45,140 nt of DNA, taken from contig PKDZ01000088.1 in the NCBI GenBank assembly GCA_002862785.1, positions 1 to 45,140 of the forward strand, read 5' to 3'. Both the position numbers and the translations under genes were made by a program. Under the pieces are notes generated by a model. That model saw only the letters and a program-made list of their open reading frames with translations, made no database searches and was not told the DNA's origin. Position 1 is the first letter of the stretch. Each line of letters begins with the position of its first letter. Source of the stretch: Flavobacteriales bacterium. Its GTDB lineage: Bacteria; Bacteroidota; Bacteroidia; Flavobacteriales_D; Sanyastnellaceae. Positions 20,313-41,426 of the stretch are shown here, piece by piece.

Positions 20313-22055
20313 ATGCCAATCTCCATGAAGCAGTCGATTCATGCGGGCCTGCTGCTTGCCCTCTGCCTTCTGTTTAGTCAAGGTGCGCAATCCCAGGACT
20401 GTGCCTGCCCACCTGTGGCGGATCGTCCTGTGGTGAACCTGACGGATGAAGGGGGAGCAGGAACCGGAACGCGAACGCTGGCTTGTGATACGCTCTACGT
20501 GCTGAATGGCTTTGTTTACGTCAATTCGGGAGATGTTTTGACCATCGACCCCGGCACGGTCATCCAGGCCAAGTCCGGACAAGGAGAAGCGGCGAGTTGT
20601 CTCATCGCGGCACGAGGTGCCCAGATTGTTGCGGATGGCACCGCCGAATGTCCCATTGTCTTTACCTACGAGGGCGATCCGATGAACGGATCCACCCCGT
20701 ACAACACGAACGGACTGTGGGGAGGTGTCATCCTGAATGGACATGGAGAGCTGAACACTTACGACGGAGACGACCTCGCCGAGGGCATCATGGACGCCTC
20801 GGGTCAGGGCCGGGATGTCTACGGCGCCATGGATTCCAATGGAGACGGGGACAACGACTTCTTCGACAATGCCGAATCCAGCGGAGTCCTCCGCCACGTG
20901 TCCATTCGGCACGGAGGCAGCGAGATGCCCAATCCACCCGTGAACTTCCAGAACGTCATCAATGGGGATGAGACCAACGGGCTCAGCCTCAACGGAGTTG
21001 GATCCGGCACGATCCTCGAACACATCGAAATCGTATCCACTTTGGATGACGGACTCCAGATCATGGGGGGCGCAGCCAGCTTGAAATACGTGGCTGTGGC
21101 CTTCTCGACGGAGGAGAACCTCGAGTTCGACCAGGGTTGGGTTGGCGACCTGCAGTACTTCTTCACCCTGATGGATCAAGGTGAACCGACGGCCAGCTTC
21201 GGGTGGGACCTGGAGGGCGACGACTTCGAGTTCCAGGACGTCACCCTGAGCTTCTTGCCCTACACGAATCCTCAGATTGCCAACTTCACGTCCATCGGCC
21301 ATTCCGAGGCAGACGCTGTGCGCTGGCACAACGGGGGAGGAGGCCGACTCTACAACGGCATCTTTCAGAACTTCGGGTTTGGCATCGATCTAGAGGACTT
21401 CGACCCTTGTGACGCCTACGAGCTGTTCCTCTTCGGTCAGCTGGAGATTCACAACAACCGCTTTTGGAACATCGGCGACTCGCTCGCCCTTGACACGATG
21501 ATTCTCTACGAGGGGCCGGTGTGGAATGGCAACATGCAAATCCAGGACCACTTCGTGGCCAACAACAATGTGGGTTCGGATCTGGGCCTCGACGACACAT
21601 TCGCTGCATTGGCGGGATTTGTCACCTCTGGCGTGGATCCGTTCCCAACGGTGGCTGACAGTGTTCCCGCGATCCACCAGCCGGTGGGCACCTTCTTCGA
21701 CCCGGTCAACTACGTCGGCGCTTTTGAGCCCGGCGGGACGAACTGGTTGGCTGGGAGCTACCTCGACCAGTTGGGCCTGTTCTACCCGGGGGACATTCCC
21801 GGATGCACCTATGACTTTGCGTGCAACTACAATCCGGAGGCCAACGTCGACGACGGTTCCTGTGACCTGGATGCATGCAGTGGCTGCATCTATGAGGAGG
21901 CGGCCAACTACGACCCGAATGCGGTCCGTGACGACGGCAGTTGCTCCGGATTTGCCGGCAGCCCAAACTGCGCCACGGACGTGGACGGCGACGGCACCAC
22001 GGGGGTGAACGACCTGCTCGAGGTCCTGTCCCTCTTCGGCGCGGTCTGCGACTGA
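20313..22055 (+). CDS. Secreted beta-helix-like surface protein with GCTD-type repeats and dockerin-like C-terminus
   Basis: 580 residues from the ATG at 20313 (576 if the ATG at 20325, which begins MKQSIHAGLLLALCLLFSQG, is used). After the signal peptide, residues about 30-490 resemble the right-handed beta-helix-like surface proteins common in Bacteroidota: LTIDPGTVIQAKSG, GLWGGVILNGHGELN, ISIRHGG-like turns, TLDDGLQIMGGAASLKYV and ENLEFDQGWVGDLQYFF. Two modules follow ([21 protein letters not shown] and GCIYEEAANYDPNAVRDDGSC). The protein ends with a 28-residue Cys-bracketed dockerin-like segment, C..DVDGDGTTGVNDLLEVLSLFGAVCD. No T9SS type A domain follows. Function is unknown; cell-surface adhesion or matrix is an inference. 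Confidence 0.88.
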   Translation: MPISMKQSIHAGLLLALCLLFSQGAQSQDCACPPVADRPVVNLTDEGGAGTGTRTLACDTLYVLNGFVYVNSGDVLTIDPGTVIQAKSGQGEAASCLIAARGAQIVADGTAECPIVFTYEGDPMNGSTPYNTNGLWGGVILNGHGELNTYDGDDLAEGIMDASGQGRDVYGAMDSNGDGDNDFFDNAESSGVLRHVSIRHGGSEMPNPPVNFQNVINGDETNGLSLNGVGSGTILEHIEIVSTLDDGLQIMGGAASLKYVAVAFSTEENLEFDQGWVGDLQYFFTLMDQGEPTASFGWDLEGDDFEFQDVTLSFLPYTNPQIANFTSIGHSEADAVRWHNGGGGRLYNGIFQNFGFGIDLEDFDPCDAYELFLFGQLEIHNNRFWNIGDSLALDTMILYEGPVWNGNMQIQDHFVANNNVGSDLGLDDTFAALAGFVTSGVDPFPTVADSVPAIHQPVGTFFDPVNYVGAFEPGGTNWLAGSYLDQLGLFYPGDIPGCTYDFACNYNPEANVDDGSCDLDACSGCIYEEAANYDPNAVRDDGSCSGFAGSPNCATDVDGDGTTGVNDLLEVLSLFGAVCD

Positions 22056-22061
22056 ACCCGT

Positions 22062-23174
22062 TCAGCGCTTCCGAACTCCGTATGGCGTCTTTCCGCCCGG
22101 TACCCACCCGATGCCGAGCGCGGGATGGTGTGCCCGAAATCCATGGGTCAGCAACCCGAGATTGACCCACCAGGGCCCTCTCCAATGGGCGTGGAGGACG
22201 ACCCGATTGTAATGGGCCTCCTCCTCTTGCCAGCGATGCAGGTAGCGCCCGTGGACCAGATCAATGTGCACACGGGTGAACCGAAGCTGGAGCCCACCGT
22301 GAACGCCCAATCCGGCTGAGGAAGGCCGTTCAAAGACCATCGCCCCCAGAATTCCTCCCAGCCGGAGTCCGCCTCCGAATCGCCAGTCGAGACCGGCTTC
22401 GCCGACGGTTTCCCGGCTCCCCAGCGGGGCGGGTTGACGGCGTCCGACCGCCACATGAACCCGCAGGCCGGACACCGGCTTGGGCAGGATGGCCAGCACA
22501 GTCAGCGTATCCGTTGTGTGAACCGGACGGCGAGCGTCTTTTGACAGGACTACAGAGACAGCCAGTGAGGCCACATTGGTCCCGAGGTTGGGCTGGGTGA
22601 AGGACCCGTTGCTCTGGTGGTCCAGCGTCCCATGCAGCCCGATGCGCTCATGCCATGCGGCTCCGGGCTCCACACTACCCGGCCGATGCAGGCCGATCTG
22701 GATGGCCGCGTTGATGGGGGAGCCGATGACCACCCGCTGTCGCGCCTCCGCACTCTCCGTGCCCCAAGTCTTCTGGGTCCACCCGAGGCCGCCTCCCAGC
22801 CGAATTTGCCAAGAGCCTGCGGCATGCAGGTCCGCCGTCCCGAGTGCGGTGACCTGGGTGCCGAGGAACCGGGGTGACCCCGTGCTGCCAAGCCGGAGCG
22901 TGGCGCCCCATCGGGCATCCTCCCGGCTGCACCCCCAAAGCCCGCCCGCCCGGGTGGACCAGTGGACGTGCACCATCTGGGCATGGCCCTCGACCAGCGC
23001 ACGGATCGCCTCCCGATGCGGAACGAGGAAGCCGCCACCCACGGCGCATTCCCAACGGTCTTGGCGGGTCTTGATCGGCGCTTGGGCATGGACGCCCACA
23101 TCCTGCGACAGGAGCGCCACCACGCACACCAAGGGCAGGCACCCGGAGAATGGCCGGAAGGAACGACGTGGCAT
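22062..23174 (-). CDS. Acyloxyacyl hydrolase / PagL-like lipid A deacylase
   Basis: 370 residues with a signal sequence (PLVCVVALLSQDVGVHA). The mid-protein motif LHGTLDHQSNGSF..PNLGTN at about 181-200 matches the active-site strand of PagL-type outer-membrane deacylases, with H186 and S188 in the HxSNG arrangement. Bacteroidota versions are about 350-400 residues, longer than proteobacterial PagL (about 170), as here. The enzyme would remove an acyl chain from lipid A in the outer leaflet. The C-terminal half consists of alternating amphipathic strands consistent with a barrel; the chain ends KTPYGVRKR rather than in an aromatic residue, which is unusual for a barrel. It converges on the gene ending at 22055 and diverges from mazG. 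Confidence 0.75.
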   Translation of the reverse strand: MPRRSFRPFSGCLPLVCVVALLSQDVGVHAQAPIKTRQDRWECAVGGGFLVPHREAIRALVEGHAQMVHVHWSTRAGGLWGCSREDARWGATLRLGSTGSPRFLGTQVTALGTADLHAAGSWQIRLGGGLGWTQKTWGTESAEARQRVVIGSPINAAIQIGLHRPGSVEPGAAWHERIGLHGTLDHQSNGSFTQPNLGTNVASLAVSVVLSKDARRPVHTTDTLTVLAILPKPVSGLRVHVAVGRRQPAPLGSRETVGEAGLDWRFGGGLRLGGILGAMVFERPSSAGLGVHGGLQLRFTRVHIDLVHGRYLHRWQEEEAHYNRVVLHAHWRGPWWVNLGLLTHGFRAHHPALGIGWVPGGKTPYGVRKR

Positions 23175-23178
23175 GGGC

Positions 23179-23186
23179 CAAAGGTG
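23179..23186 (-). promoter_or_regulatory. -7 box CACCTTTG (one mismatch)
   Basis: Minus-strand box with a single mismatch to TAnnTTTG, 4 nt from the ATG of the deacylase-like gene. It is separated by only 4 bp from the mazG box on the other strand. Confidence 0.5.
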
Positions 23187-23190
23187 ACCT

Positions 23191-23198
23191 TAATTTTG
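23191..23198 (+). promoter_or_regulatory. -7 promoter box TAATTTTG for mazG
   Basis: A perfect TAnnTTTG on the plus strand, 4 nt before the mazG ATG at 23203, within a 28-bp divergent intergenic region. Confidence 0.6.
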
Positions 23199-23202
23199 GT
23201 GC

Positions 23203-24042
23203 ATGCCGCACAAGGACGCCATCGACCGCCCCCAACTGGACACGCCCAAGGGAGGCCACACGCGAGAGGAGAAGCTGGCCGCTTTCGGTCGCCTCCTCGA
23301 CATCATGGATGACCTGCGCGAAGGATGCCCGTGGGACAGGAAGCAGAATTTCGAATCCCTGCGCCACCTCACCATCGAGGAGACCTACGAGCTCGGCGAG
23401 GCCATCCTCGAGGGGAACCTCGACGAAGTGGGCAAGGAAGTCGGCGACCTGATGTTGCACATGGTCTTTTACAGCCGGTTGGGCTCGGAGGCGGGCGCGT
23501 TCGATGCGGCGGATGTCCTCCATGGCATCTGTGACAAGTTGGTCACCCGACACCCGCACATTTACGGGGATGTCGAGGCGGCGACGGAAGAAGAAGTCAA
23601 GGCCAATTGGGAGAAGATCAAACTCAAGGAGAAAGGGGAGGAGCGCCAGAGCGTCCTGCAGGGCGTCCCCTCCGGACTGCCTTCCCTGGTCAAGGCACAG
23701 CGCATCCAGGAAAAGGTCCGTGGTGTCGGATTTGACTGGGACCACGCCGGTCAGGTCTGGGACAAGGTCCAGGAGGAGCTGGGGGAATTGCGCGAGGAGG
23801 TGGACCAGAAGAGCGACCGCATCGCCGATGAATTCGGGGACGTGCTCTTTGCCCTCATCAATTATGCGCGGTTCCTTGACGTCAATCCCGATGAAGCATT
23901 GGAGCGCACCAACCGCCGGTTCAAGGCCCGCTTCGAAGCCATGGAGCGCCGCATTGCCGATGCCGGACTCGACCTCGGGGAGATGCCCCTGGAAGAGATG
24001 GACCGCCACTGGGACGCGGCCAAACTCGAACTCGGCCAATGA
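23203..24042 (+). CDS. mazG: Nucleoside triphosphate pyrophosphohydrolase MazG
   Basis: 279 residues with two MazG domains, as in the E. coli housekeeping enzyme (263). The N-terminal domain has CPWDRKQNFESLRHLTIEETYEL with the metal-binding EExxE-like helix and EVGDLMLHMVFYS. The C-terminal active domain has GFDWDHAGQVWDKVQEELGEL and DEFGDVLFALINYARFL, with EExxE and ExxD ligands visible. It hydrolyses NTPs/dNTPs to NMP and pyrophosphate and is linked to nucleotide-pool cleaning and ppGpp control. Its stop overlaps the next ATG by four bases (ATGA). Confidence 0.96.
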   Translation: MPHKDAIDRPQLDTPKGGHTREEKLAAFGRLLDIMDDLREGCPWDRKQNFESLRHLTIEETYELGEAILEGNLDEVGKEVGDLMLHMVFYSRLGSEAGAFDAADVLHGICDKLVTRHPHIYGDVEAATEEEVKANWEKIKLKEKGEERQSVLQGVPSGLPSLVKAQRIQEKVRGVGFDWDHAGQVWDKVQEELGELREEVDQKSDRIADEFGDVLFALINYARFLDVNPDEALERTNRRFKARFEAMERRIADAGLDLGEMPLEEMDRHWDAAKLELGQ

Positions 24043-24797
24043 CGCGAGCGCGATTCCTGGCCTGGCTGGCGCTGGCCTTGCCGGTATGGACCCTGATGGA
24101 GGGGTGCACGGCAGAAGGCGCCGGGTGCGGAACGCCACTGGGCCGATCGGTCTCCGACACCCTTGAGCTCCAGGACATGCCCGAGCAGTTGCTCGTCACC
24201 GACCGGGTGGAGGTTCACTGGTGGCCTGGAGACACGCTGCCTTTCGCCGTCCGTCACGCTTGGGACGGCACTCTGGACGGAATTGAGTTCAGCCTCAGCG
24301 ATGGAGAACTGATGATCGAGGACCGAAACCGTTGCGGTTGGGTCCGGCGCCTCGATGCGGTCCCCCGCGTGGACCTTTATGGGATGATGCCGAGAGAGGT
24401 CCGTCTGGAATCTCAGGCGGATTTCATCATGGAGGCACCGTGCACATCCGGAGATTTGACGGTCGAGGGCAACCAGATGGCCGGCCGCATGGACTTGTGG
24501 TTCGAGGCGGACAGCCTCAAGGTGCGGTTGCCCAATGGCATCGGCCATGCATCGGCCAAAGGCACGGCCGTGCGCTTCTCCACCTTCCGCTCCGGCTTCG
24601 GCGACTTCGATGCTTCCGCACTCAACGCGGAGCGGGTTGTGGCCCATCAGGCCGGAACCGGGGTGATGACCTTGCGGCCAGAAGGCTACCTCTACTTGGA
24701 GTTGTCCGGGGCCGGCACGGTCTACGTGCTCAGCGAGCCCGAGGCCCAAGACGTGAACATTTGGCCGGAGGCGACAGGGGAGATCATCGGCCCTTGA
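24039..24797 (+). CDS. Lipoprotein with GIN (DUF2807-like) domain
   Basis: 252 residues. An N-terminal signal peptide (FLAWLALALPVWTLMEGC) ends at a plausible lipobox Cys. The body is a repetitive beta-strand protein resembling the putative auto-transporter adhesin head GIN domain (DUF2807) of Bacteroidota: VRLESQADFIMEAPCTSGDLTVEG, SGFGDFDASALNAERVVAHQAGTGVM and a final LYLELSGAGTVYVLSEPE. The family lies at the cell surface or periplasm and its function is unknown. It overlaps mazG by ATGA and ends 3 bp from the convergent SGNH hydrolase gene. Confidence 0.7.
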   Translation: MTRARFLAWLALALPVWTLMEGCTAEGAGCGTPLGRSVSDTLELQDMPEQLLVTDRVEVHWWPGDTLPFAVRHAWDGTLDGIEFSLSDGELMIEDRNRCGWVRRLDAVPRVDLYGMMPREVRLESQADFIMEAPCTSGDLTVEGNQMAGRMDLWFEADSLKVRLPNGIGHASAKGTAVRFSTFRSGFGDFDASALNAERVVAHQAGTGVMTLRPEGYLYLELSGAGTVYVLSEPEAQDVNIWPEATGEIIGP

Positions 24798-24800
24798 TCC

Positions 24801-25559
24801 TCAATCGAGCAGCTGGGCTTCGACGGCCTCAGCGAAGGAGGCCACCCACGCAGTGTATTGGGCCCCACTGGGGTGCAGTCCGTCTGGCGCAACCCAGATC
24901 GGGTTCCACTGCTGGCTGATGCCGGTGATGTCATAATGGGCGATGCCCGCCTGGACGGTCAGTGTGGAACAGGCGGCATTGAACTGGGCGAGTTCCATCG
25001 AGATCGTGGACCGGTTGCCTTGCCCAAAAGGCGTGTAACCATAGTCGGGAATGCTCACCACGAAGACACGGTCATCCCGGCCATTGGCGAGGTCCACGGC
25101 CCGCTCGAGCAGGGCCTGGAATTCCACCTCGTAGGCGTCCAGCGGCAAGCCTTGGTACTGGTTGTTGACACCGATGAGGAGGGATACGAGGTCGAAGGTC
25201 GACGTGTCGATTTGCTGCGCATCCATGGCGTTGCTCAGATTGGCTGTGGTCCAGCCGGTGGTGGCGATGATGTGGGCCGGTATGAAATGGGTGTCGGGCA
25301 GACGCAGGGACAGGGAGTCCACCAATTGGTTGGGCCAGTCTCCGACATCGGGCACACTCTCGCCTATGGTGTAGCTGTCTCCGAGGGCGAGGTAGCGCAC
25401 TGTATCCGGGGCGGAACCGGTGAATGGGTCAGGCTGCGAAGGAGCTGGAGTCGGCGAGGTGGGAGGCGGAGGCGGTGGATCTTCGCGGGACACGATGCAG
25501 GAAGTAGAAAGGAGGCACAGAAGGGGAATCACACGCCGCATGTCCCCAAGGAACGGCAT
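24801..25559 (-). CDS. SGNH/GDSL hydrolase, probable lipoprotein
   Basis: 252 residues from the ATG at 25559; another ATG at 25541 (MRRVIPLLCLLSTSC) would place the lipobox-like Cys at 17. A Pro-rich linker (PPPPPPTSPTPAPSQ) separates the anchor from the enzyme. SGNH blocks are visible: YLALGDSYTIGES (catalytic Ser), ATTGWTTANL, VSLLIGVNNQYQG (Gly/Asn) and APDGLHPSGAQY (Asp/His). The family includes esterases, lipases and carbohydrate acetylesterases; the substrate is unknown. It is the last gene of the ffh-folD-ribD operon. Confidence 0.88.
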   Translation of the reverse strand: MPFLGDMRRVIPLLCLLSTSCIVSREDPPPPPPTSPTPAPSQPDPFTGSAPDTVRYLALGDSYTIGESVPDVGDWPNQLVDSLSLRLPDTHFIPAHIIATTGWTTANLSNAMDAQQIDTSTFDLVSLLIGVNNQYQGLPLDAYEVEFQALLERAVDLANGRDDRVFVVSIPDYGYTPFGQGNRSTISMELAQFNAACSTLTVQAGIAHYDITGISQQWNPIWVAPDGLHPSGAQYTAWVASFAEAVEAQLLD

Positions 25560-25564
25560 TTGCC

Positions 25565-26461
25565 TCAATCCGGCAGGAGCAGGAGCACGAGCGCCGTGGT
25601 CGCGAGCCCCCACCCGAGGATGTTCCGACCGTCTGGACGTTCCTTGAAGAAGGCAATTCCAGCCAATGCAGTGGCGAGAACGATGCCCAGGTTGTTGGAG
25701 GGGACAATGGCGGACCGGGGGGATGGCATGCTCTCATAGGCCGAGAGAAGGAAGAAGAGGGAGCCCACGTTGATGACCCCCAAGATGACCCCGCCGAGCA
25801 CCGTGGCGCGGCTGAAGACAGGTTTGGCCGATGGAACGAAGGCCCAGCGAAGCAGACCGATGAGGGCGGCCACGGTGAAGGGGACAGCCGCAAACGTCAA
25901 GCGGTCGGCATCGCTCGACATGTGGGCTTCCGATGAGAACCACCCAAAACCCAAGTCAATAAGCCCGGAGCCGAAGAAAACGATGGCGGGCAAGGTCCAC
26001 GTGACGTCGAGGCGGTCGTCCTGAGCTGCGATGACCGGGTCGTCGGCACTCCGCCCAGGACTGCTCGCTAGCCACACGGCGGGAAAGGCCAGCAGAACTG
26101 CGGCCGCCTTTGGCCAGGTGAAGGGGTCGGCCGGATCGAGCAGGATGAAGACCGACATGGGCAGGACCATGGACATCTTCGTAGCGATGGCCACGACGCC
26201 CATGCCCAAGTGCTGGGTACACTCGCCGATTTTCTTGAACATATACAGGAAGGCGAGGCCCATCACCGCTCCGGCCAATGAGCTGGGCTCGGCGATCCGG
26301 ACCGCGGCATGGGAGGGCCCGGCAATGGTCACGGCGATGGAGCCGGCCACGATGTAGTTGAGGACCACGGCTTCTTCCAGCCGGACATTGTACTTCGGGA
26401 ACAGCCGGAAACAACTGAACAGCAGGGTGGACACCAAGATGCTGAGGCCGAGGGCAATCAT
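25565..26461 (-). CDS. EamA/DMT-type small-molecule permease
   Basis: 298 residues from the ATG at 26461, which overlaps the ribD stop (ATGA). There are about ten membrane helices (for example MIALGLSILVSTLLFSCF, VVLNYIVAGSIAVTIAG and ILGWGLATTALVLLLLP), arranged as two repeats of five, as in drug/metabolite transporters. The SIVPSNNLGIVLATALAGIAFFKER-like end with a basic 'KER' after helix 9 fits the EamA fold. The substrate is unknown. Its place directly after ribD raises flavin or precursor transport as a possibility, but nothing in the sequence proves it. Confidence 0.75.
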   Translation of the reverse strand: MIALGLSILVSTLLFSCFRLFPKYNVRLEEAVVLNYIVAGSIAVTIAGPSHAAVRIAEPSSLAGAVMGLAFLYMFKKIGECTQHLGMGVVAIATKMSMVLPMSVFILLDPADPFTWPKAAAVLLAFPAVWLASSPGRSADDPVIAAQDDRLDVTWTLPAIVFFGSGLIDLGFGWFSSEAHMSSDADRLTFAAVPFTVAALIGLLRWAFVPSAKPVFSRATVLGGVILGVINVGSLFFLLSAYESMPSPRSAIVPSNNLGIVLATALAGIAFFKERPDGRNILGWGLATTALVLLLLPD

Positions 26462-27573
26462 GGAAGCGGCACCGAGAGGGTGGGGGGGAAATGGGTTCCA
26501 ATCCACGCTGCGGCTGCCGGGTGAACCCAATACTCGACGCGGTCTGTTCCGAAGGGGTGCTCGCCGCGCAGGATGGCGTCCTCCTCAGTGGGCCAAGCCG
26601 GTGCCGGCAATCCGCCTTCAGTCTGCTCGGTGGAGTGGCACAGACGGATTTCGTCCCAAAGGCCGGCGTCAAGAAATCGACCGAGCGTATCGGCTCCACC
26701 CTCGACCAGCACAGAACGAACCTCACGGGCCATCAGGTCCTCCATCAGGAACGGCAGGACAAACTGGCCTTCCGCGTCGAGGTGCACGACAGATTCCGGC
26801 AGTCCTTGAGGTCCACCCACCACGAGTGTGGAGTGCCCATCGGCATAGACCTGACGGTCTGCAGTCGTGCGTCCTTCAGGGTCTAGGACAATGCGGAGTG
26901 GATTCGGCCCCTCGGCTTCCCGGACATTCAGGGTGGGGTCATCGTTGCCAACGGTGCCCGCCCCCACGAGGATGGCCCCTTCCTCGGCCCGCCACTGGTG
27001 GGTGAGCCGGCGCAATGCAGGGGAGGTGATGGCCAGGCTGCCCATTTCGCCTTTCCGACGTGGCGGGTCTATGAACCCATCGGCACTGACGGCGCACTTC
27101 AGGACAATCCAAGGCCGTCCTCGCTCCATGGCACTCAGGAAGCGGCGGTTGAGCCAGCGGCCCTCGGGAAAGGCCTCGAGGATGGAGACGTCGATCCCGG
27201 CGGCGCGCATGCGGTCGATGCCGGAGCCGGCCACCTTGGGGTTCGGATCCACCATGCCCACGACGCAGCGCATGATGCCGGAGGCAATGAGGGCCTCCGA
27301 GCAGGGTGGGGTGCGGCCGTGGTGGCTGCAGGGCTCAAGGGTGACGTAGGCCGTGGCGCCCCGCGCATCTCCGTCGGGCGGAAGCGCTTGGAGGGCAGCC
27401 GCTTCGGCGTGGGGACCGCCGACGACAGCATGCCAGCCGGAAGAGAGGACGTGGCCATCTCGGACCAGGACACACCCAACCCGAGGGTTGGGTGCGGTGC
27501 CAAACTGGCCCCGACGCGCCAGCGTGAGGGCCTCAGCCATCCATTCCCGGTCCCGGGGGGTGACCTCTGACAT
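26458..27573 (-). CDS. ribD: Riboflavin biosynthesis deaminase/reductase
   Basis: 371 residues. It is a bifunctional enzyme performing the second and third steps of riboflavin synthesis. The N-terminal cytidine-deaminase-like domain has the zinc motif HAE (H55, E57) and PCSHHGRTPPC (C82, C91). The C-terminal reductase domain shows SADGFIDPP, ITSPALRRLTHQWRAEEGAILVG, DDPTLNVRE and VLVEGGADTLGRFLDAGLWDEI. Flavin supply fits the heavy flavin demand of the nqr operon in this window. No FMN riboswitch is possible directly upstream because folD ends 3 bp before the start. Confidence 0.96.
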   Translation of the reverse strand: MSEVTPRDREWMAEALTLARRGQFGTAPNPRVGCVLVRDGHVLSSGWHAVVGGPHAEAAALQALPPDGDARGATAYVTLEPCSHHGRTPPCSEALIASGIMRCVVGMVDPNPKVAGSGIDRMRAAGIDVSILEAFPEGRWLNRRFLSAMERGRPWIVLKCAVSADGFIDPPRRKGEMGSLAITSPALRRLTHQWRAEEGAILVGAGTVGNDDPTLNVREAEGPNPLRIVLDPEGRTTADRQVYADGHSTLVVGGPQGLPESVVHLDAEGQFVLPFLMEDLMAREVRSVLVEGGADTLGRFLDAGLWDEIRLCHSTEQTEGGLPAPAWPTEEDAILRGEHPFGTDRVEYWVHPAAAAWIGTHFPPTLSVPLP

Positions 27574-27576
27574 GGC

Positions 27577-29840: not shown

Positions 29841-29848
29841 GGGGAGAA

Positions 29849-29856
29849 CAAAGGTA
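29849..29856 (-). promoter_or_regulatory. -7 promoter box TACCTTTG for the ffh operon
   Basis: A perfect TAnnTTTG on the minus strand 8 nt upstream of the ffh ATG. It is the third copy of the same octamer in this window (with 5763 and 20158). Confidence 0.6.
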
Positions 29857-29959
29857 GACCGGGGAGAGGGGAGGTCCCCGCATCAACTGTAAGCACTAAA
29901 AACTGCGACGAAATAGAAAAAAACTTAGATGAATGCGTAGAAGTCGTGGACAAATGAGC

Positions 29960-29967
29960 TATCTTAG
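29960..29967 (+). promoter_or_regulatory. TATCTTAG box upstream of the giant gene
   Basis: A variant of TAnnTTTG sharing TATCTT with the promoter at 20285-20292. A TAG (29938-29940) occupies the -33 position at 19-bp spacing, one mismatch from TTG. The surrounding 29880-29960 is AT-rich and contains no gene. Confidence 0.4.
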
Positions 29968-29981
29968 AGGTGCTTAACTGC

Positions 29982-32900
29982 ATGAACATGCGCTTTCAAC
30001 TGTACTCCCTCGCTTGTTTGCTGGTGACCTTCTTTGGCACCGCGAATGCCCAGAACGCCTGTTTCCAGTCCACTGGAGACATGGCGGGATTCTCGCTCTC
30101 GGTGGAGACCGTGGCCACGGATGTGGTTGCCGGTTTGACTACCTACCGGGTGTATCTCAACACCCCGTCCACGGATGACTTCGTGTCCGCCGTGATTGGA
30201 GATGCTACGGATCCTTTGTTCCTCAACACCACCACGTCTTTTTATCAGGACGCGCTGGGTGGAACGACCCCTGCGGCCATCAACCCCTTGTTCTACACCG
30301 TGCCGGGACTGGAGAATGTCCAGTACGACAGCTGGGTGACGATTGGAATCGAACAGCAGCCGGACCTCGGCGCGGGCGAGACCGACATCTCCTTGCTCGT
30401 CGACCCCAACGTCGCTTCCTGGGAAATCGGGTTCGGTGCCGGCGGCAATGTGGACATCAGCTCGCCCATCGGCGGGGGATGGTACATTCTGCCCAGCAGC
30501 GCCAACGGCATCTCCGGTGCCGATCAAAAGGTGCTCCTCGCGCAGGCCACCACCGACGGTGACCTCAGCGGGCAGTTCTACATCCAGGTCTTCCCCAACG
30601 GAGACCAGTCCCAGCTGATTCAGAACACCTTCGGCTTCCAGACCGTGTCCTGCGGCAGTGCCGGGTGTACCGATAGCAACGCCTGCAACTACGACGACTC
30701 GGCCACCGACGACGATGGCAACTGTGAGTATGTGGAACCAACGTTGTTGCCTGGTGACGCACCTGCTTGCGGCCTCTTCTTCAGCGGTTACGCGGAAGGT
30801 TCAAGCAACAACAAGTTCCTCGAGATCTACAACCCAACCGACGTTGCAATCAGCTTGGACGGTTATGCTTACCCAAGTGTGGCCAATGCTCCAACGGTTC
30901 CAGGTGAGTACGAATGGTGGAACGAATTCGATGCCGGAGCGTCAATCGCTCCAGGTGATGTTTATGTCATTGCGCACGGATCAGCCGATCCAGCCATCTT
31001 GGCTGAAGCGGACGAGACGCACAACTTCCTGTCTAATGGAGACGACGGCTACATGCTCGTGATGGGTACGCAGGATGACTTCATCCAAATCGACGCCATC
31101 GGTGACTGGAACGGCGATCCTGGATCTGGTTGGGATGTTGCGGGTGTGTCTGCGGGTACAAAGGACCACAGCTTGATTCGTAAGTCTGATATCACCAGCG
31201 GAAACGGTGGCGATTGGACAGCGTCTGCGGGTACGAATGCCGACGACAGTGAGTGGATTGTCCTCGACCAGAACGACTGGACAGGCCTCGGAAGCCACGA
31301 TTTCACCGGCTCATGCGGTGGTGGTAACTACGCCGTGGTCTACGACTGTGATGGCGTGTGCTTGAATGACGCGGACGGTGACGGTGTGTGTGACGAGTTG
31401 GAGATTGCCGGTTGTACTGACAATGGTGCCTGCAACTACAACAGCGCTGCCACAGACGATGATGCCTCTTGTGAGTACCTCACTTGCGCAGGCTGTACAG
31501 ATGATGCCGCTTGCAACTATGATGCTGATGCGATCTCTGACGACGGCTCATGTCTCCAAGCAGACGAATGTGGCGTTTGCGGCGGAGACGGCATCGCTGA
31601 CGGTGCGTGCGACTGCGACGGCAACGCTCTCGATGCTTGTGGTGTTTGCGGTGGTGACGGCTCGTCTTGCGCGGGCATCGGCGTTGCAATCAGCGCTTGC
31701 TCAAGCTTTACAAGCGGTTCTGCTGCGGCGTGGCCATTTGTGTTGACTGCGACGACCATTGCTGATGGCGCCAGTTCTCAGGAAGCGCAAACGATGGTCA
31801 TCAATGTGACCTCATTGCCAGCTGGAGCGCAATACCGAGTGTTCAAGACCACAGCGAATGGTGGTTCTTTCTTCGGTAACCCCCAAAACCTCGTTTTGGG
31901 TCAGAATACGGTAACCGTGGCTGCAGTTGGTTTCGACCGAGCAGTGAAGTTCCAATTCTCTGACGGAGACGTGGAATTTGACTTCTTGTCCATCAACGAT
32001 GAGGAGCGTGACGAATGCTACGCGGTGGATCCAGGAACGCCCATTTCTGAGTGCAATCAATTCGGAGCAGGTCCCAATGGCAACTGGCCACATGCTTTGA
32101 CTTTGACCACTCCCGATGATCCAAGCAGCAACTCAGCCCAGACTTTGGTTTTGACTGTTGCTTCACTCCCTGACGGCGGTGCGAACTACCGCGTGGTCAA
32201 GACAGTGGCCAACGGCAACTGGTTTAACGGCAATGCTCAAGCTCTTGCTTTGGGAGAGAATTCAATCACTGTTTCGGGTGTTTCTTTCGCACGCTCAGTA
32301 AAAGTTCAGTTCTCGAGCGGTGCCGTTGGTGTCACTTCAATTGTGGCAAACGGTACAGAGTTGGTCTGCGGTGCGGGTTGCACGGACAGCAACGCATGCA
32401 ACTACGATGCAGATGCCCTGACCGACGACGGAACCTGTACGTTCCCAGCCAGCGAGCACGTCGACTGTGACGGGAATTGCATCGCCGATGCGGACGGAGA
32501 TGGCGTCTGCGATGGACTGGAGGTTTCGGGTTGTACGGATGCTACAGCCTGCAACTACAGCAACACTGCCACCGACGACAACGGCAGCTGCTTCTTCTGC
32601 TGCGGCGAAACGTCCAGCGACAATGCCCAGTACGGTCTCGAGCAAGAGATCGTCGCCTTCGACGGCATTCCGGGCATGCGCACCTACCGGTTCTACATCA
32701 CCACCCCGAACGCCGATGACCTCGTGTCTGCGGTCAGTGGTGATGAGAACAACCCGACCATTGTGAGCACCACGACCTCCTTCTATCAGGACGAGCTCGG
32801 TGGCGCTTTCCCGAATGGAATCAACCCGACCCTCTACGATGCCTTCCCGTCCCTCCAGTACGACAGCTGGATGACGATCGGCATCGACCAGGCTCCGGAC

Positions 32901-35900
32901 CTCGCTGGCGGCGAATCTGCCATCGGCTTTGCCGAGGCCGAGAGCTGGATCACTGAATTCGAGAACGGCGAGAGTTTGGCCATCGACGGCTTCTTCGGAG
33001 GGGCTTGGTATGCCACCAGTGACTTCACCAATGGTGTGTCTGGGGAAGATCAGCGTGTCCTGCTCGCCCAGCTCACCACAGACGGTGAGTTGAGCGGTCA
33101 GTTCTATGTGCAGGTTTTCCCGAACGGTGAGGCCGAGGGCCTCGGTGATCTCGTGATGCTCAGTTTCGGCCCGCATGTGGACACGGTCGCCCCGTATTTT
33201 GTGGACTTCCCGGCCGACGTGACCGTGGGATGCGATGATGCCCTGCCCACGGCCGATATCCAAGCGGAAGACCTCTGCTCCGAGCTCTCCGTGAGCCTCG
33301 AAGAAGTGACCTCGGGTGACGGTTGCTTGACGACGGTGGCCCGCACCTACACGGCCACAGACGCCGCCGGCAACAGCACCTCCTCCACCTGGACCATCAG
33401 CGTGGTGGACGATGCCGCTCCGGTCTTCTCCGCTCCGGCCGACATCACCGTGAACTGTGGTGACGACATCAGCCCAGCTTCCCTGGGTGAGGTGACCTCC
33501 GCCACGGATTGCAACAGCTACACCATCAGCTTCAACGACGCCACCATGTTCAACATGGATCCGTGCATCGGCGAGATGATCGCCCGAACTTGGCGCGTCG
33601 CAGACGATTGCGGCAACGAGGCCATCGACATCCAAATCATCACCATCGTCGATGCCGTCGCCCCTTCGTTTGCACAAGTCCCCGCCGACACCACCATTTC
33701 CTGTGACGCTCTGGTCCCCACCTCCGATGTGGTGGCCCAGGACGACTGCGGCAGCGTGACCGTGTCCTCATCCGAAGAGACCCTCGACGGAGAGTGCGCC
33801 GGCAGTGCCACCATCCTTCGCACGTTCACTGCCGTGGACCCCTGTGGCAACAGCAGCCAATATGTGCAGACCATCACCGTCATCGACACGGTGGCGCCGT
33901 TCTTCACGAGCGTGCCGGCCGACCTCACAGTGGGGGTGTACGACGACATGCCGTCCTCCTCTGCCGAGGCCAGCGACAACTGCAGCAACGTGACGGTCCT
34001 CCAGAGCGAGGTGACCGACGCCAGTGCCAATGACTTTGCCTTGGTGATTCGGACGTTTACGGCGGTCGACGCCTGTGGCAACAGCAACACGGCGACCCAG
34101 ACCATCACCGTACTCGAGGCCCTCGGTTGTACCGATGCCCTCGCCTGCAACTACGACGCCGTGGCCACCTCGGACGACGGGTCCTGCGATTACTGCTCCT
34201 GTGACGGCGTCTACCCGGCCAGCGGCCCCTACAACCTCGACATCGATACGATCGAGGACGGCATCGACGGCATGACCACCTACCAGGTCTACGTGACCCT
34301 CGAGAGCGCCGATGACTTCCTCAGCGCCGTGACCGGCGAGTCCGAGAACCCGACCTACATCCGGACGAGCACGAGCTTTCACCAGGATCCGCTTGGTGCT
34401 GCCAGTGCCCATGGCATTAACGGCATGCTCTTCGACGCCTTCCCGCCGCTTGTTTATGACAGTTGGGTGACCGTTGGCCTCACCAGTACGGCCAATTCGG
34501 CTGCCGGTGAAGGCGAGGTGACCCTCGTCGAGGGCGAGTCCTGGGTGAGCGCCTTCGAGGCCGGAGGCAACATCGAACTCGATGGCACCTATGGCGGCGG
34601 CTGGTTCTCCCTGAACGGTTCCTCTAACGGAGCCGCCGGCGACGACCTGCGGGTGCTGATTGGTCAGTTCACCACGGACGGTGTGTTCAGTGGTCAGGTG
34701 TATGTCCAGGTCTTCCCCAACGGAGACGGCGACAACATGCAGTTCCAGACCTTGCGGTGGGGAGAGCCCCAATGTGGATGCCAGTTGGAGGACGCGTGCA
34801 ACTACGACCCGACCACGGCATACACGGACAACGACAATTGCCTCTATCCTGAGGACCTCTATGGCGCTCCGCATCTCGATTGTGATGGAGTCTGCTTGAA
34901 CGACCTGGACGGAGACGGCGTGTGTGACGAGGACGAGGTCCCCGGCTGCATGGACGACACCGCTTGCAACTTCAGCGATGTGGCCACGGACGACGATGGC
35001 ACCTGCTGGTATGCCGACTACGGTTACAACTGTGACGGCACCTGCATTGGAGATGCCGACTTCGATGGCATCTGCGACTTGAATGAGGTTCAGGGCTGTA
35101 ACAACGAAGGCGCCTGCAACTTCGACCCTGCCGCCACGGAGAACGACGGATCCTGCACCTTCGATTGCTACGGCTGTACTGACAGCACCGCTGCCAACTA
35201 CGAGGCGGACGCCCTCCTCGATGACGGTTCCTGTGTCTTCGGTGGCTGTACCGATGACGCTGCGTCGAACTACTCTGCCACGGCCGACTTCAACGACGGC
35301 TCCTGTGAGTACCCCGGTTGTACCGATCCGCTCGCTTGCAACTTCGACCTCGACGCCAACGTCGACGACGGTTCCTGCGACACCACGAGCTGCGCCGGTT
35401 GTACCAACGACATCGCGTGCAACTATGACGACACGGCCACGTTGAACGACGGCTCCTGTGAGTTCTTCAGCTGCCGCGGATGCACCTCGGCCGATGCCTT
35501 CAACTATGACGACACGGCCACGGTCGACGACGGTTCCTGCCTCTTCGGCGGGTGTACTGATACGGATGCTGACAACTACGACGCCACCGTGGACTTCAAT
35601 GATGGTTCCTGCGAGTATGGTGGATGTACCGATCCGCAGGCGTGCAACTTCTTCATCGGCGCCAATGTCGACGACGGTTCCTGTGAGTTCACGAGCTGCG
35701 CGGGCTGCATGGTGACTTTTGCCTGCAACTATGACCCCACGGCCACCATCCAGGACGACAGCGCCTGTGACTTCACGACTTGCTGTGGCGACCCCGCTGC
35801 CGACAATTACGAGGATGGTGTGGCCGATTTCCTGACCTACGGATGCACCTATGGTGGTTCCGCCCCGAGCATCGAGTTCGTGGGGTGCGAGCTGCCCTTT

Positions 35901-38900
35901 GCCTGTAACTTCGGTGACACGGAGAACGACTGTGAGTTCTCGTCCTGTGCCGGTTGTACGGATCCGGCCGCCTGCAACTATAACGCAGACGCCACGATTC
36001 CTGTCACCTGTCTCTACGCTGCGGACTTCTATGGAGTGGACTATGTGGATTGTGACGGCAACTGCCTCAACGACGCCAACGCCAATGGCCTGTGCGACGA
36101 GACTGAGGTGACGGGCTGCACGAACCCGCTGGCCTGCAACTACACGGATGGCGCCACGTTTGACGATGGCTCCTGCGACACCACCAGCTGTGCCGGTTGT
36201 ACCGACGCTGCCGCCTGCAACTACGATGCTGAGGCTTCGGTCAACGACGGCACCTGTGACTACGCTTCCTGTAGCGGCTGTACCGACGCCGCGGCATGCA
36301 ACTATGACGCCACGGCCACGTCCGACGACGGTGGATGCGTCTTCCCGGCCAGTGCCTTCGTGGACTGCAACGGAGACTGCCTGAACGACAGCAACGCCAA
36401 CGGCATCTGCGACGAGCAGGAGACCCTTGGCTGCACGGACCTCCAGTCCTGCAACTTCGACATCAACGCCACATTCGATGACGGAAGCTGCGAAAGCACA
36501 AGCTGCGCTGGATGTACTGTGGCCACAGCGTGCAACTACGACGCCACGGCCACGTTGAACGACGGGTCCTGTGACTTCACGAGCTGCCTCGGCTGCATCG
36601 ACGCCACGGCGTGCAACTACGATGCCACGGCCACGATTGACGATGGGTCCTGCACGTATCCGGAGCCCGCCTACGACTGTGACGGCAACTGTCTCGTGGA
36701 CAGCGACGGCGACGGCATCTGTGACGCCTTCGACGGCAACTTCGAGGGCTGTATGGACGATTTGGCCTGCAACTACCAGCCGCTTGCCGACACGGACAAC
36801 GGCTCCTGCGACTACTGCAGCTGCGCCGGCTACACGACCGACATGCCTGAGTACGGTGTGGAAATCGAAGAGTATGCCCTCAACGGCATTCCCGGTTACA
36901 CGACCTACCGGATCTACATCACCATGCCGAATGCCACCGACCAGGTGAGCGCGGTGACGGGTCAAACGGAGAACCCGCTTTACGTGGAGACCACGGGCGA
37001 CTTCTACCAGCACCCGAATGGAGGCGTGTTCCCGAACGGCATCAACCCCATCTTGTATGACTTCTTCCCGGAAATCCAGTACGACAGCTGGTTCACCATC
37101 GGAATCGACGCCGTGCCGAACACGGTCCTCGGTCAGGGAAGCGTCCAGGGACTGCCCGAACCCGATCCGTGGAGCGGACCGTTTGAGGCAGGCAACGGCT
37201 TCACCATCGATGACATCATCGGTTCCGGTTGGTTCGTCAACCCCGACGTGACCAATGGTGTGGCCGGCGACGACCAGAAGGTTTTGCTCGCCCAGCTGAC
37301 GACCAACGGTGAACTCAGCGGTCAGTTCTACGTCCAGGTGTTCCCGGAGGGAATCAACCTGAACCAGGAGCGCGTGACCCTCACCTTCGGCGGCAGCCAG
37401 TGTGGCTGTACCGATGAGACGGCGTGCAACTACTCGCCGAGCGCCATCATCGACGACGAGAGTTGCTACTACCCGCAGTTCGGTTACGAGTGCGATGATG
37501 TCTGCTTGTTCGACAGCGAGGCTCCGGTCTTCACCGAGACGCCCGAGGAAATGGAGATCAGCTGCACCGCCGCCAGCATGGACGTGGAGTACCCCGCGGC
37601 CACGGACAACTGCGACACCGACCTCGACTTCTCCTACTTCGACGAGATCCTCGATGGACCGTGTGGCGAAACCTATGACATCGTCCGTTCCTACGTCGTG
37701 ACCGACAACTTCGGCTATGCTGACACCGTCAGCCATGTGATCCATGTGGTGGACAACGCCGCTCCGGTCTTCACCAACGTGCCGGCCGATGCCACGCTCG
37801 AGTGCGGCGATCCGCTCCCAACGAACCTCGCCGTGGCCGTGGACAACTGCAATGGCGTGACCATCACCTACGTCGACGAAATGACGGAGACCGGGTGCGG
37901 TGGCACGGGAACCCTTGTGCGGACCTGGTCTGCTGAGGATGCCTGCGGCAATGTGAACACGGCCCAGACGACCTACACCATCGAGGACACGACGGCTCCT
38001 GCCATTGAGAACATGCCCGCCGATGTGACCCTCAGCTGCGAGGACGAATACGACTTCCCCATGCCGACGGCCAGCGATGCCTGCGGTACGGTGGACCTGA
38101 CGGAAGAGATGACGACGCAGGCCGGAACGTGTGCCAACGAGTACACGCTCATCCGGACCTTCACGGCCATCGATGCCTGCGGCAACTTCAGCCAAGCCAT
38201 CCAGGCGGTGACTGTGGTGGACGAGACGGCCCCGGCCTTCTCCGGTTTGCCCGCGGACACCACGCTGGAATGCGGCGAGGCCATCCCGGCCACCGCCGTG
38301 ACGGCAGACGACCTCTGCTCAGGGGCCATCAACGTGACCTTCTCCGATGTGGAGACGACACTCGATGCCTGCACCTATCAGGTGGTGCGCACCTTCTCCG
38401 CGGAGGACGACTGCGGCAACACGGCCACGCACGATTGGACGATCACCTTCGAGGACACCACGGCACCGACCTTCACGGTTCCGGCCGACGTGACCCTCGA
38501 TTGTTCCGCCGACATCACGCCGGCCGGAGCGGGAGACGTGACCGATGCCGCCGACGCTTGTGATTCCGCTCCGACGGTGAGCCACAGCGATGTCGTCCAG
38601 GACGGACTGTTCTCCTTGAATGGATTGACCGCGGACATTCGCGTGGAACTTCGCCTCAACAACCTCGCCGCGTTCCCGCGGGTCCTGGAGGCCACGGGGG
38701 TCACCATCGGCGACGGCTTGGAGCTCGACCTGGACGATCAGGTGTCCAACCCGATCAACCTCCGCGGCGCCCTGAGCGTGGACATTGATGGCGACCAGAT
38801 TGATCTCGGTGTCCTCGACGTGATCGGCTCGGAGAGCTATGATTACATCGAAGTCCGCATCAGCAACATCAGCGGTGCCGGCATTGTCGGAGCCGAATTG

Positions 38901-41426
38901 GTCTCCAATAATCTGTTCGTGGATGCCTCTGCGGCAGAATTCAGCCAATCCTTCTCCAGCGAGGAAATCGTCCTGAGTTGGACAGAGCTGACCGGCAGTG
39001 TGTTGGCCATCGTGAATGGCGGACAGGGCTCCGTGACCGCCTTGGGTGCATCCAATTGTATCTCCAGCAACATCATCACCCGGACGTGGACCGTGACGGA
39101 CGCTTGCGGCAACAGCACGAGTGCCCAGCAGGTCATCACCCTCGAGGACCTGACGGCCCCGGTGTTCGACTTCACTCCGGCAGACCAGACGCTGGATTGC
39201 AACGATGACTACACCCTGGAGATGGCCACGGCCACCGACGCCTGTTCCGGTGTTGCGGTGACCTACGCCGACAGCGAGAGCTTCCCGTGCGACGGAAGCC
39301 GCGTGATCGAGCGGACCTTCACGGCCATGGATGGATGCGGCAACATCAGCACGCACCTGCAGACCATCTCCTACCTCGACACGACGGCTCCGGTGTTCAC
39401 CAGCACCCCGGAGGACCTCGCCCTCGAGTGCAGCGATGAATTGCCTGTCACGGAGGCCACGGCCAGCGATGACTGCGGTTCCGTCACTTTGACCTATAGC
39501 GATGAGACCGTCCAGGGTGACTGCGCCGGCGACTTCACCGTCCTGCGGACCTTCACCGCGGAAGACGGTTGTGGAAACAGCGCTACGCACCTTCAGACCA
39601 TCGTCTTCACGGACAACACAGCTCCCGTGGTGACCTCCGCTCCGGCCGACACGAGCTACCAGGTGGTGGCCGGTCAGTCCATCCCGGTGGACCTGCCCGA
39701 GGCCGAGGATGCCTGTGGCACGGTGACGATCACGTTTGTCGATGTCTGCACGGAACAGGGGCTGGGAGGCTACACGGCCACCCGGACCTTCACCATCGCC
39801 GACGACTGCGGCAACAGCACCGAAGTGGCCCAGGCCATCACGGTGAGCTTCGCCCTCGGCTGTGACGATCCGGCTGCCTTGAACTTCGACCCCGAGGCCA
39901 TGGCCGGTGACGGATCCTGCCTCTATGCCGGTTGTACCAACCCGGAGGCCTTGAACTACAACCCGCTGGCCGACGAGGATGACGGCTCTTGTGTGGTGGC
40001 CGACATCGAAGGCTGCACGGACCCCAGTGCCTGTAACTACTTCGAGCCCGCCAACTTGGACGACGGTTCCTGCGACTACTGTAGCTGCGTCAACGCCCCG
40101 GTCATCGACGGCTACAGCATCGAGCTGGAGACCGTAGCCGAGGACGCCATCCCGGGCATGACCACCTACCGCCTGTACGTGACGATGGTCAACCCGACCG
40201 ATGTGCTCTCGAGCATCGTCGGTGAGGACGGACTCGAAACGTACATCAACACGAGCACGTCTTTCTACCAGGATCCCTTCGGTGGAGCCCTCGGACAGGT
40301 CATCAACCCGATCCTGTTCGGCATCCAGACGGCCCTCGAGTACGACAGCTACGTGACGATCGGATTGACGCAGGCTCCCAACCTGCTCGCCGGCGAGGTG
40401 GAGGTGACCGCAGTCCAGAGTGAGGACGCCAACTGGATCGAGCCGTTTGAGGCTGGTGGCAACATCACCATCGATGGATCCTTCGGTGGTGCTTGGTTCA
40501 CCCTGAATGGGGCGACCAACGCCCAGGCTGGTGACGACCTCCGCGTCCTGCTCGGCCAATTCACCACGAGCGGTACGCTCAGCGGCCAGATCAGCCTCCA
40601 GGTCTTCCCGGAGGGCGACGGCGAGAATGACCTCGTGATGACCTTCCCGATCGGCAACCCCGGTTGCGGATGCACGGACGAGAGCGCCTGCAACTACGTG
40701 GACGGCGCCACCAGCGATGACGGAAGCTGCACCTACACCGGCATCTACGACTGCGATGGGGAGACCTGCATGAACGACGGGGATGGTGACGGCATCTGCG
40801 ACGAGCTCGAGGTGGCCGGGTGTACGAACCCGAACGCCCTGAACTATGACGCCTCCGCAACGGACGAGGACGGTACCTGCCTGCTCCTCGGCTGTACGGA
40901 TCCGGAAGCCAACAACTACGACGCCACGGCCAACGTGGACGGTGAATGTTCCTACCCGATGGAGGGCTGTACCGATGCGGCTGCGGTCAACTATGACGCC
41001 ACCGCCTTGGTCGATGACGGCACCTGCCTGTTCCTCGGCTGCATGGATCCGGAGGCCGACAACTACGATCCGACCGCCAACGTCGCTGGCTTCTGTGCCT
41101 ACCCGACGGAAGGCTGCACGGACGCTGCCGCGGCCAACTACGACGAGAATGCCCTGATTGATGATGGTTCCTGTCTCTACCCCGGTTGTACCGACGAGAC
41201 GGCCCTGAACTACGACCCGAGCGCCAACTTCGATTCCGGCTGCATCCTGCCGCTGGAAGGCTGTACGGATCCACAGGCTGAGAACTACAACCCGCTCGCC
41301 AACACCAACGACGGAAGCTGCGAGTACACGCCGCCATGCCCGGGTGATCTCAACGGAGACGGCACGATCAACATCAACGACCTGCTGGACTTCTTCCAGA
41401 TCTACGGATCGGATTGCCCGCAGTGA
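29982..41426 (+). CDS. Giant modular secreted surface protein (3814 residues)
   Basis: The ATG at 29982 (or 29988) begins a signal peptide, [22 protein letters not shown]. Order of parts by position: unnamed ~190-residue domain A1 (30051-30652); GCTD module; lamin-tail-like domain (30742-31316); two GCTD modules and Gly/Asp-rich linkers; two copies of an unnamed ~110-residue module (31690-32370); domain A2; four HYR-like repeats (33177-34121); domain A3; 21 GCTD modules (34775-36809); domain A4; eight HYR-like repeats (37518-39857), one carrying a 149-residue insertion; domain A5 (40101-40660); eight GCTD modules; and a terminal Cys-bracketed dockerin-like segment ([16 protein letters not shown]...). 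No T9SS type A domain or membrane anchor is seen after it. Size, Cys and Asp content suggest a long, calcium-stabilised adhesin or matrix protein. That role is inferred, not shown. Confidence 0.93.
30051..30652 (+). repeat. Domain A, copy 1
   Basis: About 200 residues directly after the signal peptide. Shared pattern of all copies: TTYR.Y..TP..D..SAV.G, then TSFYQD..GG, INP..., YDSWVTIGI, an 'E.GGN...' segment, GGGWY or [27 protein letters not shown]. Probably a beta-sandwich; I cannot assign a family name. Confidence 0.8.
30742..31316 (+). other. Lamin-tail-like (LTD) domain
   Basis: About 190 residues with the LTD signature [20 protein letters not shown], followed by [19 protein letters not shown], an IDAIGDW strand and KDHSLIRK. 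LTDs are Ig-like and occur in secreted bacterial nucleases and surface proteins. Confidence 0.75.
31690..32370 (+). repeat. Tandem pair of an unnamed ~110-residue module
   Basis: Copy 1 (about 31690-32030) and copy 2 (about 32035-32360) share SxCxxFxxGxxxxWPxxLT, an 'AQT.V..V.SLP.GA.YRV.KT.ANG..F.GN.Q.L.LG.N..TV' core and a closing 'V.F.R.VK.QFS.G.V' strand. No known family is recognised. Confidence 0.75.
32610..33176 (+). repeat. Domain A, copy 2
   Basis: Same pattern as copy 1: [68 protein letters not shown] (split across the segment). It is preceded by a GCTD module ending CFFCCGE. Confidence 0.8.
33177..34121 (+). repeat. HYR-like array 1 (four repeats)
   Basis: Four Ig-like repeats of about 78 residues, each starting 'VAPxFxxxPADxTxxC' and ending with a 'RT(F/Y)TA.D.CGN.....TI.V.D' strand pair. 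HYR repeats are common in secreted Bacteroidota adhesins. The fourth has lost the usual Cys at the start (TVGVYDDMP). Confidence 0.85.
34205..34771 (+). repeat. Domain A, copy 3
   Basis: Contains [50 protein letters not shown] and [19 protein letters not shown]. This is the copy most like the partial domain at the left end of the window. Confidence 0.8.
34775..36809 (+). repeat. Array of 21 GCTD-type modules
   Basis: Modules of about 25-50 residues with the core 'GC.D..ACNYD..AT.DDGSC'. Many here are short (no '[17 protein letters not shown]' half) and are joined by 'TSCAGC' or 'FGGC'. Several are degenerate near 35720-35940 (for example [13 protein letters not shown] and [12 protein letters not shown]). 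Cys content is about one in nine residues. Confidence 0.9.
36831..37400 (+). repeat. Domain A, copy 4
   Basis: Contains [40 protein letters not shown] and [19 protein letters not shown]. It is preceded by the linker CDYCSCAG, which also introduces copies 3 and 5. Confidence 0.8.
37518..39857 (+). repeat. HYR-like array 2 (eight repeats)
   Basis: Eight repeats of about 78 residues with 'APxFxxxPAD.TLECGD' starts and 'CGN' near the end of each. The fifth repeat is split by a ~149-residue foreign segment (38606-39053). The last repeat has replaced the early Cys ([10 protein letters not shown]). Confidence 0.85.
38606..39053 (+). other. ~149-residue insertion within HYR repeat
   Basis: Between SHSDVVQDG and [20 protein letters not shown] a Leu/Asp-rich, Cys-free segment is inserted ([54 protein letters not shown]). 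The flanking halves together make one normal HYR unit. The inserted family is not recognised. Confidence 0.7.
40101..40660 (+). repeat. Domain A, copy 5
   Basis: Contains [54 protein letters not shown] and [19 protein letters not shown]. Confidence 0.8.
41338..41423 (+). other. Terminal Cys-bracketed dockerin-like segment
   Basis: [20 protein letters not shown], then Q-I-Y-G-S-D-C, two residues from the stop. The DxNGDGxIxxxD loop is that of a type I dockerin or EF-hand calcium site. The same layout ends the 580-residue protein at 22055. Confidence 0.75.

Follow-up and report, generated by a model that had tools for sequence, protein, structure and literature searches.

Three repeat proteins encoded in a 45,140-nt window of a Flavobacteriales genome (by window we mean the whole stretch of DNA that was analysed) end with a short segment rich in Asp and Gly, which raises the question of what such a segment does at a protein's C-terminus. 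More than once, a new sorting system has come to light through a large C-terminal family shared by exported proteins. The original prediction was that the segment, found on proteins without a T9SS type A domain, is either a non-canonical sorting signal or a dock for a cohesin-like partner. We looked for the segment throughout the genome, its family and its order, and compared the proteins that carry it with relatives that do not.

The terminal module and the proteins that carry it

The features of the window that bear on this question are the following:

20313-22055, + strand: tail-bearing exported protein with a repeat-like body, two Cys-rich DDGSC repeats and the terminal module (open reading frame; rule-based signal peptide)
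20313-20396, + strand: its Sec signal peptide MPISMKQSIHAGLLLALCLLFSQGAQSQ, without a lipobox (from the sequence; boundary placed by eye)
21801-21944, + strand: two Cys-rich repeats (25 residues) ahead of the tail (from the sequence)
21969-22052, + strand: terminal dockerin-like module CATDVDGDGTTGVNDLLEVLSLFGAVCD, then the stop (open reading frame and tail query search)
21978-22013, + strand: putative EF-hand loop DVDGDGTTGVND, then an LLEVL helix (from the sequence; weak EF-hand and dockerin matches of the aligned tails)
29988-41426, + strand: giant repeat protein (about 3812 aa) that also ends in this module (open reading frame; HYR_4C domains in the last 818 residues)
29988-30053, + strand: the giant's Sec signal peptide of 22 residues (boundary placed by eye)
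41337-41423, + strand: the giant's terminal module of 29 residues, then the stop (open reading frame and tail query search)
2101-2295, + strand: degenerate two-module version in a protein that enters from base 1 (from the sequence by eye; not found by the tail query)
2296-2373, + strand: acidic tail beyond the degenerate modules (from the sequence)

Two of the termini are nearly identical, as originally described, with coordinates that had been one base off (21969-22052 and 41337-41423 are correct). The third, first placed at 2107-2300, is indeed a degenerate two-module version followed by an acidic tail; it lies at about 2101-2295, reads ...NPDWNGDYCYTVADLMHLLCLFGVC...DSCFSAFDLTPFLTLYQTC... 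and has no NCBIfam match. The giant contains recurring copies of about 200 residues and HYR_4C domains, and has long stretches in common with type A giants of the same genome, one of them a protein of 3153 residues. Cys-rich 25-residue repeats of the DDGSC type (window 1-2376, 21801-21944 and 29988-41426, and many other loci) are frequent among the proteins fetched from this genome; scans of the window proteins gave them no Pfam or NCBIfam family of their own.

A search of the organism's own genome (2.44 Mb in 92 contigs, 98.5% complete) with a 29-residue tail query, at E values up to 10, gave 72 match places in 58 open frames. The module formed the end of the protein in 52 of the 58, with 0-3 residues between the last matched residue and the stop in 50 of these, and 5 or 8 residues in the other two. 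These 52 proteins share the consensus CxxDx[DN]GDGxVxxxDLLxxLxxFGxxC a few residues from the stop. In an alignment of 45 of the 52 tails, C1, D4 and C27 were invariant; seven incomplete or unusual tails (C7_3257, C5_32221, C46_597, C64_481, C2_95282, C29_471 and C62_9448) were left out of it. The start of an EF-hand-like loop, [DN]-x-[DNSTE]-x-[DNSGE]-[GADQEP], with acidic or polar residues at the first ligand positions, was present in 46/52. A strict regular expression matched 36 of 53 closed tail ORFs (C1_51186, whose module is not terminal, was later removed from this set). It matched no ORF in the set of 37 with type A, and no sequence when the last 60 residues were shuffled 106,000 times. 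The shared tail is not a product of chance, and the initial observation is confirmed on a scale far wider than the window.

Flanking Cys residues had been proposed to enclose an EF-hand loop, and this arrangement proved general, with a closing Cys in 52/52 tails and an opening Cys in 48/52. The pair, which according to the original prediction could lock the loop, is nearly always kept but is not fully required: in related MAGs, six closed loci (L133-L137 and L139) have a similar end that lacks the closing Cys. In the proteins of these loci, a DDGSC repeat is followed by a terminal loop-helix that ends in FGxxL (five) or FGA (one). A second module-like match was found within the last 110 residues in 20/52 tails, the remaining 32 being single. 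Two of the 20 (C62_3493 and C81_4339) resemble a DGDGxCD repeat by eye, leaving about 18 true tandem tails, so that about a third of the 52 have two modules. The one-module tail is about 28 residues long, a loop plus a helix, and in many cases comes after Cys-rich DDGSC repeats. Pfam domains were found in 7 of 10 tail proteins scanned, including GH16, M12B peptidase, lysyl oxidase and phosphodiesterase.

Almost all tail proteins carry an export signal. Eight of the 52 frames are cut at their 5′ side and the count therefore refers to the remaining 44, of which 43 have a signal peptide: 36 by a simple ATG-start rule and 7 more on visual inspection, of which six begin with a codon other than ATG and one falls just below the threshold. 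The only exception is C62_9448, a protein of 81 aa. The rule is not exclusive to tail proteins, as 23 of the 173 other window frames also satisfy it, and real genes are among these. A possible lipobox was seen in just one of the 36 rule-positive ORFs.

None of the 52 tail proteins matched the type A (PF18962) or type B (PF13585) T9SS domain at E<=0.001. Elsewhere in the same genome PF13585 has 26 match places, and PF18962 has 37 places in all, 29 of them over the cut-off. The serine hydrolase of the window (PF00144; 9345-10910, − strand) had been described as carrying a type A domain. On visual inspection its C-terminus does resemble a divergent type A domain; it gave, however, no PF18962 match whether the window (at E 0.001), the whole protein or its last 100 residues were scanned; type A profile counts may therefore be lower bounds here. 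T9SS components are widespread: the PorV family is present in 150/150 genomes of the order and a T9SS sortase match in all 42 family genomes, 41 of which score above the cut-off; the organism's own genome is included in both counts. The view that the segment is a shared terminal element, at the position of a T9SS domain on exported proteins, is supported.

In six of the 58 proteins the module lies elsewhere, either right after the signal peptide (C1:50596, C49:11241 and C23:29496) or internally (C19:8153, C8:18773 and C8:12583). Two of the internal cases, C8:18773 and C8:12583 (L237 and L239), are by eye a GH3-like and a GH5-like enzyme and end with a type A domain, identified by PF18962 in the C8:12583 protein and by eye in the C8:18773 protein. 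A T9SS domain behind the segment, which would speak against a sorting role if it were routine, thus occurs in only 2/58 proteins, with the module internal in both. L237 and L239 have the appearance of a tail-bearing protein fused to a T9SS enzyme. The internal and N-terminal positions favour a docking module over a strictly terminal secretion signal.

Relation to dockerins and EF-hands

An NCBI model, the GC-type dockerin NF041540, already covers part of the two-module form. This model gave weak matches to 30 of 45 single modules, and eight two-module tails aligned over its full 67 positions with 15-27 bits (cut-off 29). The best score in the organism's own genome was 28.7 bits, below the cut-off, whereas 29 of the 42 family genomes have a match that exceeds it. 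The tails resemble NF041540 in that two-module forms align along the whole model; they differ in that the matches in this genome stay under the cut-off and that most tails here have one module. The Pfam Dockerin_1 model (20/45 members) and EF-hand models likewise matched single modules weakly; among ten longer tails (eight of them two-module), Dockerin_1 (PF00404) exceeded its cut-off in two and EF-hand models in one.

When solved structures were searched with a profile of the tail, the best match was 2y3n chain B (E 9e-9), a cellulosomal dockerin, and the alignment took in both repeats; most of the lower-ranked matches were calmodulins, which align on the loop. By sequence, the module is therefore a dockerin-like EF-hand pair, entire or halved, with Cys residues framing it. 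The loop probably binds calcium, as judged from its ligand positions, and the two Cys residues may form a disulfide that clamps it. AlphaFold2 models were poor (pLDDT 66 for 110 aa with 21 rows, and 51 for 38 aa alone) and show only the helix after the loop.

The likeness to type I dockerins (PF00404; 2y3n chain B) lies in the DxNxDG loop plus helix, doubled in part of the tails. The tails differ in having Cys at both ends, an FGxxC close and often a single module, and in that no cohesin was found: PF00963 had no match in the genome at E<=1, a search that a cohesin recognisable by fold only would escape. On the strength of this PF00963 search, a cohesin was rejected as the partner of the tail. 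C-terminal dockerins alongside cohesins are described for Cloacimonadota in the available part of PMC8542988, a different case from this tail.

Distribution of the tail and its exchange with other anchors

Across the order, 150 genomes were searched and 51 had tail matches. The window's family accounts for 40 of these, from 41 genomes, and the 109 genomes outside it for the other 11, each with 1-3 places. Within the family the counts, among the matches listed and with a tandem tail counted twice, were at least 32 places in 28 genomes and at most 13 in the other 13. Phylum-wide, 9/395 genomes matched and only three did so strongly: the organism's own, one other family member and one of the same order. 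Named relatives are MAGs, mostly Flavobacteriales and one Crocinitomicaceae, and such a tail ends 24/24 related loci in them (one MAG gives two loci, and some are near-identical). The tail is therefore a family-level expansion in mostly uncultured Flavobacteriales. Tail and type A candidates per Mb were inversely related across the 41 family genomes (rho -0.62, p 1e-5), and more so in the 28 genomes under 3 Mb (rho -0.86); without scaling to genome size the relation was weak (rho -0.29, p 0.06). These counts are of unscored first-look candidates in related genomes, and the p-values are thus not to be taken at face value.

The organism's own genome provides a direct example of exchange. T_C29 and S_C30 are 75% identical over 411 aa, and one ends with the tail, the other with a type A domain (PF18962 E 2e-5, 26.2 bits, just below the cut-off of 27). 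The type A partner of this pair is also related to the window protein, with 39% identity over 410 residues. With repeats masked, 17 of 53 tail ORFs had a relative among the 37 type A ORFs. Homologues bear the type A domain in place of the tail and not behind it.

To follow one body more widely, we fetched 30 of 63 places matching the window body, one per genome, from the 37 genomes searched. By eye, 12 of these relatives end with this tail, 9 with type A and 8 with neither, and one is cut off. All eight untagged relatives have a lipoprotein signal, six by a lipobox pattern and two by eye (GTGC-SK in L180 and SVAC-KK in L181). The pattern also flagged the tagged relatives L162 and L165, whose site misfits the usual lipobox; tagged relatives with a clear start begin with an ordinary signal peptide, the N-terminus of L164 being unsure because it starts near a contig end. 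In four of the untagged relatives (L171, L181, L183 and L184), a single Cys-rich DDGSC-type repeat comes after the lipoprotein Cys.

A tree of 31 bodies (29 relatives and two from the organism's own genome; the cut-off L178 was left out) requires at least five changes among the three tail states. The states are clustered on the tree, which indicates a small number of events and not 31 separate ones. Which tail this body carries is not tied to the tail-richness of the genome: the tail occurs in the tail-poor genera g8, g10, g11 and g16, and a type A member in the tail-rich g12. The body also carries the tail in two other families (L172 and L189); together with its occurrence in tail-poor genera, this suggests that the tail may have spread from this body as an early carrier. 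The M12B metalloprotease body gave a similar picture, with the tail, in one or two modules, ending 12/12 closed loci of the family, and type A ending, by eye, 2/2 closed loci of other families; five further loci are cut off. Because the tail is swapped for type A domains and for lipid anchors when homologous bodies are compared, it most likely does the job of a T9SS tail.

Possible roles of the tail

We propose, with a probability of roughly two in three, that one or two dockerin-type EF-hand modules make up a tag at the C-terminus which targets or anchors the protein and substitutes for the T9SS domain. Tail proteins would leave the cytoplasm by Sec, and the tag, in place of a T9SS C-terminal domain, would then bring the protein to the outer membrane or cell surface or hold it there. 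The module, with calcium probably bound and a putative Cys clamp, may itself be the delivery or holding tag, read by a dedicated partner that could be either a T9SS shuttle, making the tail another signal class, or a docking receptor on the surface. The functional part of the original prediction is thus partly supported.

Two versions of this broad proposal, in which the tail is another class of T9SS signal or a tag that docks to a receptor, have nearly equal weight, and each of these, taken singly, is a doubtful proposition. In the former, the T9SS translocon or shuttle would read the tail as it does types A, B and C, and carry the protein across the outer membrane. The available sections of PMC10202324 and PMC12618676 put types A, B and C in print and describe T9SS as reading several unrelated C-terminal signals, so that more than one kind of terminal signal, as with types B (PF13585) and C (PMC10202324), has precedent. 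Like the type A domain (PF18962, TIGR04183), the tail is C-terminal on Sec-exported proteins and takes the same position on homologous bodies, and the PorV family and the sortase match are found throughout the order and the family, respectively. The tail nevertheless differs from type A, whose model has 75 positions and to which we saw no sequence relation, and from type B, with its 26 places in the genome and none in a tail ORF. A one-module form of about 28 residues, loop plus helix, is also not the beta-sandwich described for type A in the available part of PMC12618676, and a signal of this kind is hard to reconcile with modules that are N-terminal or internal. Nor is the PorV family expanded: it has 2-4 members in the tail-rich g1 and g12 vs. 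4-6 in the tail-poor g8 and g16, which gives no support to PorV paralogues as the reader. A PorU-like sortase as reader was uninformative, low-scoring relatives occurring here and there in tail-rich as well as tail-poor genomes. Several genera of the family have frames of about 1,600-1,730 residues with a weak relation to the T9SS sortase, scoring up to 165 bits (G098:C8:91020, G009:C61:5849, G020:C1:3967387 and others); the organism's own genome has only a second T9SS sortase match of 37 bits.

The docking alternative, in which a receptor other than a recognisable cohesin binds the module non-covalently and holds the protein at the surface, accommodates the placement of modules elsewhere in a protein and the dockerin relationship, that is, the cellulosomal best structural match ahead of the calmodulins and the Dockerin_1 (2/10 tails) and NF041540 (29/42 genomes) scores over cut-off. 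The genome has no detectable cohesin domain, though, and docking alone does not explain how bodies without a T9SS domain cross the outer membrane. Binding to cohesins on a scaffoldin, as by a classical cellulosome-type dockerin, is highly improbable: the sequence relation to dockerins is offset by the absence of PF00963 at E<=1 and by the predominance of single modules. It is unlikely, too, that the tail is simply a calcium-stabilised, Cys-rich end cap that protects the C-terminus and has no part in targeting. The EF loop with its Cys framing would suit a stable cap, and many one-module tails adjoin DDGSC repeats; the tail is, however, also found on enzyme bodies, alternates with sorting tags on homologous bodies, and has no counterpart in the eight lipoprotein versions.

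We found no publication on this tail or on a dockerin-like T9SS signal, in a search mostly of papers outside subscription, without preprints and largely short of full text; the available part of PMC11557425 held nothing relevant to it. A tentative extension of the targeting-tag proposal, to which we give somewhat less than even odds, is that this family exchanged much of its type A tagging for a half-dockerin tag that would constitute a new calcium-dependent class of T9SS or surface-anchoring signal, with a shuttle or receptor of its own. About 50 proteins of one genome share a single tail, which on homologous bodies is exchanged for either of two known delivery tags, and the occurrence of tail-rich and tail-poor genera in one family makes a search for the partner gene directly feasible. 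If the proposal is true, counts of T9SS substrates based on types A and B would overlook much of what these bacteria display at their surface.
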